A stretch of DNA of 64,000 bases from the NCBI GenBank assembly GCA_023135165.1, contig JAGLTS010000011.1, positions 1 to 64,000 on the forward strand, read 5' to 3'. Both the position numbers and the translations under genes were made by a program. The first letter of the stretch is position 1. Each line of letters begins with the position of its first letter. The stretch is from Phycisphaerales bacterium. Lineage in GTDB: Bacteria; Planctomycetota; Phycisphaerae; Phycisphaerales; JAGLTS01. This document shows positions 4,647 through 11,266 of this stretch, piece by piece. The notes beneath the pieces are model-generated. The model saw only the letters and a list, made by a program, of their open reading frames with translations, did not search any database and was not told the origin of the DNA.

Positions 4647-5820
4647 ACTTGCCTTGGGCGACGTGGTCGGCGGCCTTCTTGATGTGGTTGCGAACGAGCA
4701 AGATCACGACGACCAGCATGATCCACCAGACCAGGCCGGCGACGGCGATCTGCAGGATCTTGGCGATTGTCGCGCTCAACACGTCCAGCCCGGTGCGCCA
4801 TGCGCCGCCAACTCGTTCCGTGAAGCTCGACCACAGCGAAGCTGTCTGCTCCGGCTCTTCGACGTGATCCGCCGGGCGAATAATCACGAGCACGCTGCTG
4901 AGCGAGACCAGGCGGGAGAGCCGATCGCGCTGGGCGACGAGCCGTTCGACGTGGTCGCGCACACCGCTGATTTCCTTGCGCAGTTTCAGGATATCCGTGA
5001 GCGGCGCGTCGTCGCGCTGGGCGAGCAACTCCAGGAGCTCCTCCTCAATACGCCGTTCGTTGCGCAGCCGGGCCTCGACATCAACGACCTGAGATGTGAC
5101 ATCCTCGCCGGACAGCTTCTCTGAGGTCACTTCGCCGAAATCACGCAGGGCGTTGAGCAGTTGGCTGAGCCTGCGCGATGCAATGCGCATGGTGATCTCA
5201 GCTCTCGCGCTTTCACCGGCGCCGCGCAAGCTCGACTCCTGGATGTACTCGCCGCCTGCCTCGCTTATCAACTGGGTGATCGCGTGGAACGCTGCATGCA
5301 CATCATCTGTTCTCAACTCAACGTTCGCCTTCCGCACGACGTGTCGCGTCATGCTGGGGATCGGCGGGATATTGTCGGTCTCGGCTTGGGCAGCCAAACC
5401 TGCAAAAGCCGCGCGGGAAGTCGATAGGTACCGGAAGTCGGTATCCGGCTGGATCTGTGGAGGTGAAAGAACCGGGTCTCCAGCACGCATGGCCTCATCT
5501 GGAACGCTCCCCCTCTCCAGCATGAGCGAATAGTTCTGATCGGCGCTTCCCACGCGCCGGGCGCTGTCTCTCGCCGGAGTGACCATCAGGTTCGGTACGG
5601 TCACCGCGACGAGGACAACGACGAGTGCGGCAAGCGCGAGCGTTGCCGCCACCGGCCAAGGCACCGCGAGGTTGAACAGGCGCAGCAGAGGTCGCTCCGG
5701 CTGGCGTCGGGCTGATTCCGCCTGATCCAGCGCCGCTTTCCAAAGCCCCGGCGTCTCGTCGGACCATGTTGTGAGTTGCCCTAGTTGTGCTGTCACGTCA
5801 GGCATCGGCTCGTCGCTCAT
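4645..5820 (-). CDS. DUF4349 membrane protein, putative sigma-factor partner
   Basis: A 391-residue protein with an N-terminal cytoplasmic segment of about 50 residues, a transmembrane helix (about 53-76), a long extracytoplasmic region containing the DUF4349 core (MTRHVVRKANVELRTDDV through a coiled coil at roughly 230-300), and a second membrane helix near 355-380. Its ATG overlaps the stop of the upstream ECF sigma gene (ATGA), a strong sign of coupled translation. I infer that it acts as, or replaces, a membrane anti-sigma factor; the family itself has no proven function. It lacks an obvious zinc-binding anti-sigma motif in the N-terminal segment. Confidence 0.8.
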   Translation of the reverse strand: MSDEPMPDVTAQLGQLTTWSDETPGLWKAALDQAESARRQPERPLLRLFNLAVPWPVAATLALAALVVVLVAVTVPNLMVTPARDSARRVGSADQNYSLMLERGSVPDEAMRAGDPVLSPPQIQPDTDFRYLSTSRAAFAGLAAQAETDNIPPIPSMTRHVVRKANVELRTDDVHAAFHAITQLISEAGGEYIQESSLRGAGESARAEITMRIASRRLSQLLNALRDFGEVTSEKLSGEDVTSQVVDVEARLRNERRIEEELLELLAQRDDAPLTDILKLRKEISGVRDHVERLVAQRDRLSRLVSLSSVLVIIRPADHVEEPEQTASLWSSFTERVGGAWRTGLDVLSATIAKILQIAVAGLVWWIMLVVVILLVRNHIKKAADHVAQGK

Positions 5821-6377
5821 CGTGACACCTCCGCTGCAAGCTGCTGCCTGAGTTCTTGAAGCCCACTGTGCAAACGCGACTTGAGCGTTCCAAGCGGGAT
5901 CCGCAAGATCTCCGCAGCCATTTCATGTGTCATGTCATGGTGGTAGCAGAGCACAAGCACCTCTCTGCGCGCCGGGGGCAACTGATCGAGTGCTTCGGTC
6001 AACCGTGCGCGCTGTTCGGATCGGCGGATGCTCGCATCCGGTGCCGCCGTGCTGTCGCTCGCCGAATGATGCACATCCAGGCACGCGTGCACCGCCTTTC
6101 CTCGCTGGGCTGCATACCATGATCTGCCGCGGTTGATGAGAATCGTGTAGAGCCACGTTTTGACACTGCTCCTGCGGCGGTACGACCGAGCGCTGCGAAT
6201 CACGCACAACCATGTCTCCTGCACGAGTTCGCAGGCGACGGTCCGCGATCCTCCCGCCAGACCGAGCGCCATGCCGAGCAGTGGTCGTTCGTATCGCTCA
6301 GCCAACTCTCCCAGCGCATCGCGGTCGCCATTGCAGAACGCATGGAGGAGCGCTTCGTCGCTCTGCCGGTCGCTCAT
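5817..6377 (-). CDS. ECF-type RNA polymerase sigma factor
   Basis: A 186-residue sigma-70 family protein of ECF size. Region 2 is at about residues 10-75 (ALGELAERYERPLLGMALGL, ELVQETWLCVI) and region 4 at about 125-180 (LDQLPPARREVLVLCYHHD, AEILRIPLGTLKSRLHSGL). The ATG at 6377 is preceded by AAAGGGG. It is translationally coupled to the downstream DUF4349 membrane protein, the usual arrangement of an ECF sigma factor and its regulator. The pair lies between duplicated copies of the neighbouring acetyltransferase 3' end, suggesting it was inserted or duplicated as a unit. Target promoters are unknown. Confidence 0.92.
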   Translation of the reverse strand: MSDRQSDEALLHAFCNGDRDALGELAERYERPLLGMALGLAGGSRTVACELVQETWLCVIRSARSYRRRSSVKTWLYTILINRGRSWYAAQRGKAVHACLDVHHSASDSTAAPDASIRRSEQRARLTEALDQLPPARREVLVLCYHHDMTHEMAAEILRIPLGTLKSRLHSGLQELRQQLAAEVSR

Positions 6378-7375: not shown

Positions 7376-8218
7376 ATGTCCGACGATCAGGCCAATAACA
7401 TCACCCGCGTCGGCTGCGTGTCGTACCTCAACACGTTGCCGCTGATCGACGGCCTGGATCGGCTGGCGAACCTCTCGCTCTCCTATTCCGTCCCCTCCGC
7501 CCTGCTCGGCCGACTGCTCGCAGGCGAAATCGACCTCGGCCTTATCTCGACGATTGACTACCAGCTAGCGCGCAAGCCGCTCCGACTCGTCGGCGCCGGC
7601 ATGATCGGGTGCGACGGCCCGACGCTGACGGTCCGCGTCTACTCAGCCGTCCCGGCGGATCAGATCACGACCGTGCATGTCGATCGAGAGAGCCACACGT
7701 CCGTCGCCTTGATGCGGATCATCCTGCGCGAGATGCACGGGCGCGATGTGGACATCATCGAGTTCGACGCACGGCAGCGACGGACGGAGGGCCGGGGCGA
7801 TCCCCAGCCTGAAACGATGCTGCTCATCGGCGACAAGGTCGTGACCGATTCTCCGCCGACCGGGCGCTATTCGCACCAGCTCGACCTGGGCGAAGCGTGG
7901 CACGCGCTGACGGGCTTGCCGTTCGTGTACGCCGTCTGGATGTGCCGGGATGACCTTGATGAGAAGCAGGCGCGTCAGATCGCCACGGCTGCCGCGGTGC
8001 TGGATCGTCAGCGTCGCCACAACGTCGAGCGGATCGACCAGCTCCTGGCGCGCAGCGCCGTGCCGCGAGGTTGGCCGATCGACCTCGCCCGTGCATACCT
8101 CACGGACATGCTCCGCTTCGCCGTCGGACAACGTGAACGGCAGGCGATCGAGGTCTTCTTCGACAAAGCGAACCAAGCCGGCCTGACCCCGCGCCGTCGC
8201 CCAACGACCTGGCTGTAG
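7376..8218 (+). CDS. mqnA: Chorismate dehydratase, futalosine menaquinone pathway
   Basis: A 280-residue protein of the MqnA family, which dehydrates chorismate to 3-enolpyruvyl-benzoate in the first step of the futalosine route to menaquinone. Family-typical segments are RVGCVSYLNTLPL at the start, EIDLGLISTIDYQ, RESHTSVALMRIIL, LLIGDKV and DLGEAWHALTGLPFVYAVW. The fold is a periplasmic-binding-protein-like two-lobe one, but there is no signal peptide, fitting a cytoplasmic enzyme. A sigma-like gene begins 4 nt after its stop and is almost certainly co-transcribed. No other mqn gene lies in the window. Confidence 0.93.
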   Translation: MSDDQANNITRVGCVSYLNTLPLIDGLDRLANLSLSYSVPSALLGRLLAGEIDLGLISTIDYQLARKPLRLVGAGMIGCDGPTLTVRVYSAVPADQITTVHVDRESHTSVALMRIILREMHGRDVDIIEFDARQRRTEGRGDPQPETMLLIGDKVVTDSPPTGRYSHQLDLGEAWHALTGLPFVYAVWMCRDDLDEKQARQIATAAAVLDRQRRHNVERIDQLLARSAVPRGWPIDLARAYLTDMLRFAVGQRERQAIEVFFDKANQAGLTPRRRPTTWL

Positions 8219-8222
8219 CACA

Positions 8223-9878
8223 ATGCCCAGGCTCCCGACATTACGTCTTCAGCCGCTGGCCGACTTGCTCGAACAGCTCCGCTACGCCCCGCGCGAAGCT
8301 CGCATGCGCCAGATGACGCAGACTGAGGCGCTCGCGGCGGAGATCACGCCAGGCCAGCACTACCCTCACACTTACATCGTGTTCCGCCTCACCGGGTATC
8401 GCCCCGACACCGCGCCCACAGACGAACCGATCTACGCAGGCGATGCGGTCCTCGTGGATCTTGGAGTCCTCGTCGAACTGCTTTCCGACTCACTGGACTT
8501 GTCACGCAACGACCTGGGCAAGCCGTCGCTCACACTCGACGAGCTGCGCCGCCACTGGTCCGTGAGCAGCCGAACCATCGACCGATACCGGCGGCACGGA
8601 CTGATCGGCCATCGTGTGATCGACGAGGAGGGCGATCACAGGTTGGTTTTCACAATGCGTCAGGTCCAACATTTTGAGGCGCTGCACAAAACACAGCTCG
8701 CCGGCGCACAGCGGTTCTCGCGCATCGACGACGATGTGGAGCAGCGCATCCTCCGCCGAGCGCGCAGGTATCACAGTGCGCTGGGGTATTCGCTGAACCA
8801 GACCGCAGCCAGGCTGTCGCGCCGCTTCGATCGAGGACATGAGACGATTCGGCAACTGCTCGCACGGCACGACGCGGAGGCCGGCCCCGATGCTGTGTTC
8901 ACCAAACCGGGGGTTCTGACCGAAAAACAGCGCCGCACGCTCCACCGCGCGTGGAGGCGAGGCATTCCCATCGATCGTCTGACCCGTGCATATGGACGAA
9001 GCCGATCATCCATCCATCGCACGATCGGCGAGTACCGAGCGGGTCTCTTGCGCCGGTTGGATCTCACCGGACCCACATCGCCCACGTTCGTGCGCGACGA
9101 TGCGGACTCGGTCATCCTCGCGCCGGGAAGCGTGCGCCGAAACCTGGCTCCGGCGGCGTTTGGCACAGCTCAGGCGTTCGCTGCGTTCGCACAGGCAAAT
9201 GATCTTCCCGAAGCGGAGATCGAAGAAACGCAGTGCGCCGCATTGCACTACCTGCGCTACCTTGCTGCGCGCGAGTCAGCCGATCTGTCGCGCCATCAGC
9301 CATCCACCGTCTCACTGGATCAGATCGAAACACATCTGCGGTGGGCGAGCAGGATCAAGGCAGCGCTGATCGCATCCCATGCCCGGCTCGCGCTGCAAAC
9401 GATCGAGCAGTTCATCGGCCGACCGTTGCTCAGCATGCCCGGGACTGAGGTTCGGCAGCTCTTTGATCTCTCGACAACGGCGTTGTCACGCGCGGTGGAT
9501 GCGCACGACGTGTTCAAGGGAGGACGTCTGGCGGCGCCTGCGGGACTGCTGCTGACCCGCCTGCTCGCGGCGCATGTGCACAGGCCGGCCGATTCACTCG
9601 CACGCGCCAGGCACGATGCATCGGCCGTCGTACTGTCGGACTATCGTTTTTCGCTCGATCCCTGGCAGGGCTGGCTGGAGTTGCCCACGTTTCTGCTTGG
9701 ACGAATGACCGTGCTCGATGCGACGGAACGAATGGTCATCACCGCACGCTATGGGCTGGATAGCGCGCAGCCGCTCACCGCATCCACCGTCGCCGACGAG
9801 ATCGCAGCAACGCCGCAGCGCGTGTTGCGCGTGGAGCGACATGCGATCCGCAGACTGTACGGCGTGCAGCTCGCATGA
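8223..9878 (+). CDS. Divergent sigma-70-like protein with extra HTH regions
   Basis: A 551-residue protein. Residues 102-150 look like a MerR-type winged helix (TLDELRRHWSVSSRTIDRYR). Two further helix-turn-helix candidates follow (about 187-214 and 246-272). Residues 327-352 recall sigma region 1.2/2.1. Residues 374-452 align by eye with sigma region 2: the family pattern of a conserved RLV helix, a GR turn, then AVDKFD-KG is echoed by ALIASHARLALQTI, IGRPL and AVDAHDVFKGG. Residues 496-545 resemble region 4.2 (ATERMVITARYGLD, TPQRVLRVERHAIRRL). No region 3 is visible. I infer a specialised or decayed sigma factor; a large multi-HTH DNA-binding protein is the alternative. It sits 4 nt behind mqnA. 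Confidence 0.7.
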   Translation: MPRLPTLRLQPLADLLEQLRYAPREARMRQMTQTEALAAEITPGQHYPHTYIVFRLTGYRPDTAPTDEPIYAGDAVLVDLGVLVELLSDSLDLSRNDLGKPSLTLDELRRHWSVSSRTIDRYRRHGLIGHRVIDEEGDHRLVFTMRQVQHFEALHKTQLAGAQRFSRIDDDVEQRILRRARRYHSALGYSLNQTAARLSRRFDRGHETIRQLLARHDAEAGPDAVFTKPGVLTEKQRRTLHRAWRRGIPIDRLTRAYGRSRSSIHRTIGEYRAGLLRRLDLTGPTSPTFVRDDADSVILAPGSVRRNLAPAAFGTAQAFAAFAQANDLPEAEIEETQCAALHYLRYLAARESADLSRHQPSTVSLDQIETHLRWASRIKAALIASHARLALQTIEQFIGRPLLSMPGTEVRQLFDLSTTALSRAVDAHDVFKGGRLAAPAGLLLTRLLAAHVHRPADSLARARHDASAVVLSDYRFSLDPWQGWLELPTFLLGRMTVLDATERMVITARYGLDSAQPLTASTVADEIAATPQRVLRVERHAIRRLYGVQLA

Positions 9879-10557: not shown

Positions 10558-11166
10558 TCAACGCCGGGCGTGGCGGCGCTGCACCGCTCGGGCTGCCTCC
10601 GCGGACAAGTCCTGCGTGATCGACGCTGCACGCGCGGGGTCCTCACGGCGAAGCTGATCCAGCAGCACGCCGAGCCGGTTATCACGCTCACGGCGCCATC
10701 GCTCGAAGAGCTGCTCAAGCTCATGCCGAGCAAACGCGCTGAGCGGGTCAGCCAGGCGGGATTGCGCGACACCCCAGTCAATCAGGCTTCGCGGCGAGCT
10801 GTCGAACCGGTACAGCTTGATCGTGGCGGCGATCCGCTTCTCGATGGGCAGGAACGGATCGCGCGTCTCATCGGGCAAGGTGAGCATCCGGTCGGTCAGC
10901 ATCCCTTGCTCGATCGTCGCGCCAGGCCCGTCGTCGCCTACGGGCTGGGTGGTCAGCGGGGCAGGCGAGGCATCGGCTTCGAGCTGAAGCCGCGCATAGT
11001 TGGTGCTCAGGGACTTGACACCCGCATCCTGGAAGCGTGCGGTGACGATCTGGACGACCGCCCCGGTGTGGGTCGCCGTTTCGGTCTTGCTGACCACACC
11101 GACGCCCCATTCGGGCTTGTCGAGATGGACGATCCGGTCGCCTCGGGTGAAGGTTCGCTGGAGCAT
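10558..11166 (-). CDS. DUF3553 domain protein
   Basis: A 202-residue protein whose N-terminus (GDRIVHLDKPEWGVGVV, residues 9-25 or so) matches the small beta-barrel DUF3553 domain, which is often attached to helicases and other DNA-acting proteins. The remaining part is helical and charged (FARHELEQLFERWRRERDNR) without a recognisable catalytic motif. The ATG at 11166 is preferred over 11241 because the domain begins there and a TACACT -10 lies only 7 nt upstream. It diverges from accA. Role unknown; a nucleic-acid link is inferred from the family only. Confidence 0.75.
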   Translation of the reverse strand: MLQRTFTRGDRIVHLDKPEWGVGVVSKTETATHTGAVVQIVTARFQDAGVKSLSTNYARLQLEADASPAPLTTQPVGDDGPGATIEQGMLTDRMLTLPDETRDPFLPIEKRIAATIKLYRFDSSPRSLIDWGVAQSRLADPLSAFARHELEQLFERWRRERDNRLGVLLDQLRREDPARAASITQDLSAEAARAVQRRHARR

Positions 11167-11173
11167 GGGCAAG

Positions 11174-11179
11174 AGTGTA
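11174..11179 (-). promoter_or_regulatory. -10 element TACACT for the DUF3553 gene, leaderless spacing
   Basis: On the minus strand TACACT ends 7 nt before the ATG at 11166, with no Shine-Dalgarno between. Same geometry as at mqnA (7364), the acyltransferase (21102) and polX (32557). Confidence 0.55.
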
Positions 11180-11224
11180 AGGGCTGCGGGGCTGGGACTA
11201 AAGCCGCGCCGCCGCCTGAACCGG

Positions 11225-11230
11225 TACAAT
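11225..11230 (+). promoter_or_regulatory. -10 element TACAAT for accA
   Basis: CGGTACAAT lies 36 nt before the accA start codon. No convincing -35 hexamer is seen. A GAGGAT ribosome binding site follows, so accA has a short leader, unlike its divergent neighbour. Confidence 0.5.
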
Positions 11231-11266
11231 GCTTTCTTCACGCCAGCCGAGGATAAGCCCCACCCG

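Follow-up and report, generated by a model that had tools for sequence, protein, structure and literature searches.

The sigma-like domain of PhyR, found in Alphaproteobacteria, has a sigma-2/sigma-4 part that no longer starts transcription. Sub-region 2.2 of sigma factors contacts the beta' coiled coil, and sub-regions 2.3-2.4 carry out base capture (PMC4598750). In R. baltica, RB12251 (567 aa) has been called a 'specialized sigma factor', tabled among stress-repressed genes and listed elsewhere in the same source as rfaY (PMC2754498); on length alone, it might be an ortholog of the protein described here. Our search of the open-access literature found no paper on this family, and no Pfam or NCBIfam family models its architecture, a triple helix-turn-helix (HTH) module at the N-terminus joined to a sigma part. 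We analysed a 64,000-nucleotide stretch of DNA from a Phycisphaerales bacterium (the window), in which a sequence-only reading had proposed a new sigma-factor-like family. That proposal holds for the architecture; however, the canonical members are recognisable sigma-70 factors, so this is a new subfamily of sigma-70, and the window copy is degenerate, having lost nearly all clamp and -10 melting residues, and is therefore probably no conventional sigma. The gene, its parts and its upstream neighbour are as follows.

7376..8218, + strand: mqnA, directly upstream with a 4 bp gap (PF02621 E 2e-41; sequence and synteny)
8223-9878, + strand: whole gene, 551 aa, ATG start; orthologous to a sigma-70 subfamily of Planctomycetota, eroded
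8223..9092, + strand: N-terminal module, residues 1-290, common to the whole family (AF2 mean pLDDT 93.4; PDB fold search)
8526..8684, + strand: HTH 1, residues 102-154, winged, HTH_17/MerR-like (predicted model and weak Pfam matches)
8730..8891, + strand: HTH 2, residues 170-223, three helices in the model; conserved R199/E202/R205 (L048 numbering)
8922..9056, + strand: HTH 3, residues 234-278, HTH_23/resolvase-like (predicted model; HTH_23 match in an ortholog)
9168..9257, + strand: eroded segment resembling region 1.2, residues about 316-345; aligns to GLPPYLxxLYxxPLLTxEQE of canonical members
9306..9377, + strand: helix into region 2.1, residues 362-385, bearing the eroded-member signature LDxxETxLRWAxRLK
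9342..9578, + strand: sigma region 2, residues 374-452, in an eroded form that lacks its melting and clamp-contact residues (alignment, profiles, SigA fold matches)
9579..9689, + strand: short linker replacing the sigma-3 domain, residues 453-489 (RpoD profile gap in canonical members and alignment)
9711..9857, + strand: HTH of sigma region 4, residues 497-545, eroded in part (PF04545)

In a search of related genomes, nearly all those from the window's order proved to have a full-length ortholog, as a rule a single copy, and the family profile matches 195 of the 198 genomes of the class Phycisphaerae at E<=1e-12 (189 of the 198 fall below 1e-30, and the weaker matches could be other sigma factors). 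The N-terminal module alone is present in 52 of the 294 genomes of a phylum-wide sample. When a genome collection was scanned with the canonical N-terminal alignment, 570 matches were obtained; the same scan queried with the window protein returned no relatives. Among the best 80 of these 570, every match whose title gives a group is a planctomycete (three are titled just 'bacterium'), the named carriers being Pirellulaceae, Blastopirellula marina, Gemmataceae, Planctomicrobium, Mariniblastus and Phycisphaerae. Nearly all sampled Phycisphaerae genomes, and many Planctomycetia, thus have the family. Orthologs outside the window's order have textbook regions 1.2, 2 and 4 and the same ~290-aa three-HTH module. 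In the alignment of these members, region 1.2 reads GLPxYLxxLYxxPLLTxEQE, region 2 starts ANLRLVVNIAKRH and region 4 reads TLEEVGxxFGVTKERVRQIE, and Pfam scores region 2 of the ortholog L048 at 4.9e-14 and its region 4 at 1.2e-22. Region 3, which the earlier reading did not see in the window protein, is indeed missing from the entire family: the sigma-3 domain is absent from the alignment, and the RpoD profile falls on the canonical members in two pieces that skip about positions 70-150. The window protein has the N-terminal module and the sigma part full-length and colinear, and phylogeny places it within the family. In a tree of regions 2-4, the family shares one branch with a shorter planctomycete paralog (SH-aLRT 99), apart from RpoD and group-2 sigmas; support for the family on its own is 78, some of the paralogs being long branches. 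A tree of the N-terminal module agrees with families and classes. Horizontal gain was rejected as that tree tracks taxonomy. The window gene was inherited vertically and is orthologous to a sigma-70 factor of Planctomycetota.

The final ~50 residues of the window protein had been read as sigma region 4, and Pfam agrees (PF04545, E 2.5e-6, residues 497-545, over the curated cut-off), with the NCBIfam profiles SigK, RpoD and RpoS matching at the same position. Region 2, by comparison, was not found in the window protein by any single-sequence search; it is too eroded for direct detection, and its homology was therefore settled through relatives. A comparison by hhalign of 16 eroded members (from families f1, f2 and f4 only) with 25 non-family sigmas recovered both region 2 and region 4, correctly ordered (probability 97.9%, E 3.7e-13), and region 2 alone reached 74% (P 2.8e-5) against 0.2% for a control with the N-terminal module. 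The register proposed for residues 374-452 was borne out by the family alignment, in which the ARLALQTI of the window protein lies opposite NLRLVVNIA and AVDAHDVFKGG also falls in register. An AF2 model of the window protein (mean pLDDT 90.9) was used for a fold search in which the 50 PDB matches listed were all sigma factors, SigA structures being the best (best E 8.8e-4), with the caveat that the AF2 alignment held f5 rows with a near-canonical region 2, so that the model is not fully independent. That unrelated HTH domains merely imitate a sigma factor by chance might be suggested by the invisibility of region 2 to single-sequence searches and by the many weak Pfam matches to HTH domains of other kinds, yet a graded series of full-length orthologs leads up to textbook regions 2 and 4, and together with the profile comparison this refutes chance similarity, to which we assign almost no probability. 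On this comparative sequence evidence, the window protein is a member of the sigma-70 family by descent, with homologous regions 2 and 4.

The families of the window's order (f1-f4, f5 and f6; the window protein belongs to f1) differ in how much of the sigma part they keep. Profiles built from non-family sigmas only scored regions 2 and 4 at about 90 and 75 bits, respectively, in canonical members; the scores drop to about 64 and 50 in f5 and to 3.8 and 28.2 in the window protein. In the numbering of L048, which in region 2 equals the E. coli number plus one, N384, D408, G409, N410, T430 and W434 are kept in none of the 36 f1-f4 members, Y431 in one of 36 and F428 in five of 36. We take D408, G409 and N410 of region 2.2 to be beta'-clamp contacts, and the window protein has L, S and T there; F428, T430, Y431 and W434 of region 2.3, presumably the residues of -10 capture and melting, are L, A, P and L. 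The marker residues of the three N-terminal HTH units are mostly kept in f1-f4. In f5, region 2 is near-canonical; in f6, region 4 was lost separately and the protein is still retained. On the N-terminal tree, f1-f4 form one group (98), f5 is its neighbour (83) and f6 branches elsewhere, a placement that needs at least two degenerations. For closely related pairs of eroded members with an estimable dS, dN/dS is 0.07-0.26 for the eroded region 2, and 0.19-0.45 for region 4, within the range of the N-terminal module. Purifying selection of this kind suggests that the eroded region 2 is repurposed, not dead, and the low ratios, together with a conserved signature that the eroded members have of their own, point to repurposing rather than to the decay of a dead part. 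A pseudogene was rejected, with reading frames open across divergent orthologs and low dN/dS.

We consider it probable that the window protein, which descends from a Planctomycetota sigma-70 factor, is a retired sigma factor working as a multi-HTH regulator and linked to mqnA by inheritance. The alignments show that the parent factor has the three-HTH module followed by regions 1.2, 2 and 4, with no sigma-3 domain; alignment, profiles and dN/dS show that the ancestors of f1-f4 lost the residues for beta' clamp binding and -10 capture and melting and retained the HTH module and purifying selection, with a fold that is predicted to be kept. The window protein is then most likely no longer a conventional sigma for the start of transcription and most likely a sequence-specific DNA-binding regulator, acting through HTH 1-3 and the HTH of region 4; what was once the sigma-2 bundle may serve as a scaffold or an altered contact surface, and region 4 may still touch RNA polymerase. 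Residue loss alone does not prove that sigma activity is lost, and a constrained region 2 with a visible region 4 would also fit a diverged working sigma. A still-working sigma with a strongly diverged region 2, an unusual promoter and N-terminal HTH units that assist binding would account for the purifying selection on both regions, for their kept order and, by prediction, fold, and for the f5 members of the same order, which look functional. We regard it as unlikely, since almost all f1-f4 members have lost the residues of clamp contact and -10 capture, and f6 keeps the protein without region 4 altogether.

Retirement to a DNA-binding regulator draws attention to the N-terminal module, where the earlier reading had seen a MerR-like HTH and two more candidates. 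Indeed, a predicted model of residues 1-290 contains three HTH units: one near 102-154, which carries a beta wing, and two more near 170-223 and 234-278. The Pfam matches are weak in the window protein, MerR_1 reaching E 0.061 at HTH 1, under the cut-off; they are stronger in orthologs, with HTH_17 up to 1.7e-8 at HTH 1 and HTH_23 up to 5.4e-14 at HTH 3. A PDB fold search with residues 1-290 gave no whole-fold match at E<=0.001 (best E 0.23), its matches being to single HTH units only, and with MerR_1 below the cut-off as well the protein does not fall in the MerR family. The first 82 positions of the module also match the start of other proteins of ~380 aa (G282:C93:34137-34382, E 2.6e-15; G347:C154:24620-24865, E 6.0e-17) and may be a sub-domain used in other proteins too.

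The ATG of the 551-aa frame lies 4 bp past the mqnA stop codon, and the two genes are probably co-transcribed. The tight coupling to mqnA that had been pointed out is common in the window's order, 48 of 59 members having mqnA immediately upstream in the same orientation, and does not extend beyond that order (0 of 45), mqnA there being often present and placed elsewhere. Genome G005 and five genomes of family f20, when searched, gave no match to MqnA or MqnD, and the sigma-like gene is present in them. Because only one order shows the coupling, and genomes without an MqnA/MqnD match still have the protein, the suggested role in respiratory quinone supply is not supported. A dedicated regulator of the menaquinone (futalosine) genes, encoded with mqnA, would explain the spacing and adjacency within the order; these same two observations, from outside the order and from the genomes lacking a match, make it very unlikely in our view. 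We infer instead that the operon with mqnA in the order reflects inheritance, not service to quinone synthesis. In many Pirellulales-type genomes, the gene closely precedes a cluster of tRNA-Thr, -Tyr, -Gly, -Thr, tuf, tRNA-Trp, secE, nusG, rplK and rplA; this linkage is seen at the canonical orthologs L092, L098, L112, L124, L127, L129 and L159, whose other flank holds a divergent conserved gene with no Pfam match. No strongly conserved neighbourhood was found in Phycisphaerae outside the order. As the neighbourhoods differ between mqnA and the tRNA/tuf cluster, gene context gives no single function. In the window itself, an ordinary ECF-type sigma factor of 186 aa is encoded at 5817-6377 on the - strand, ~1.8 kb upstream of the eroded sigma gene (Sigma70_r2 3.3e-11, Sigma70_r4 1.4e-12), and a DUF3553 protein of 227 aa at 10558-11241 on the - strand (Pfam E 1.6e-6) is convergent with it.

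By analogy with PhyR, the eroded part might act as a sigma mimic that binds an anti-sigma or other regulator and so frees a working sigma. A selected sigma-2/sigma-4 part without melting residues has the look expected of such a mimic, and the genome also encodes a short paralog from this clade that is intact. However, the Pfam scan of the window protein gave no receiver domain and no recognised anti-sigma gene was found among the neighbours scanned, so that the protein does not qualify as a PhyR-like mimic with a receiver and a NepR-type partner, and the large HTH module points to DNA, all of which makes a mimic quite improbable. Besides the canonical short paralog, the genome has RpoD, one group-2 and one FliA-like sigma, and therefore need not lack any function.

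A bolder version of the retired-regulator reading, which we hold at about even chances, is that one order has at least twice turned a sigma factor near-universal in its class into a selected non-sigma regulator, through melting and clamp loss in f1-f4 and region 4 loss in f6, with the three-HTH module kept; the family would then offer a natural series leading from sigma factors to transcription factors. The graded series of canonical members, f5, f1-f4 and f6 makes it possible to ask which sigma functions are dispensable while the protein stays useful, and a three-HTH sigma without sigma-3, near-ubiquitous in sampled Phycisphaerae, would represent unstudied transcription machinery in a cell-biologically unusual phylum.

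Compared with known systems, the likeness to PhyR is one of working only, namely a sigma-2/sigma-4 part retired from initiation; PhyR joins a receiver domain to an ECF-like part, whereas this family has three HTH units and no receiver. MerR-type regulators share the winged-HTH pattern of HTH 1, with weak MerR and HTH_17 matches, but the likeness concerns one sub-domain of a module that has no whole-fold counterpart. Like ECF (group 4) factors, the family has sigma-2 and sigma-4 only; it differs in its RpoD-like sequence with region 1.2 and its large N-terminal module, and it fails as an ECF factor on the 551-aa length and on canonical members that score best with RpoD-type models, its tree and profiles lying near group 1/2 (the region 2-4 tree contained no ECF sequences). 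To group 1/2 sigma-70 factors (RpoD/SigA, RpoS, SigB), the canonical members are alike in regions 1.2, 2 and 4 and in SigA as the best fold, whereas the lack of sigma-3, which excludes the family from groups 1, 2 and 3, the ~290-aa three-HTH front and a separate clade set it apart, and the window copy also lacks the melting and clamp residues. The planctomycete paralog of ~350-400 aa belongs to the same clade, with the same compact region between 2 and 4 and homology from the linker, about residue 266, onward. Genes like it occur in most planctomycete genomes examined, and the copy in the window's own genome (L191:634-1851, G000:C37) has no sigma-3. This paralog is without the N-terminal HTH module and, in the window's genome, retains canonical regions 2 and 4.
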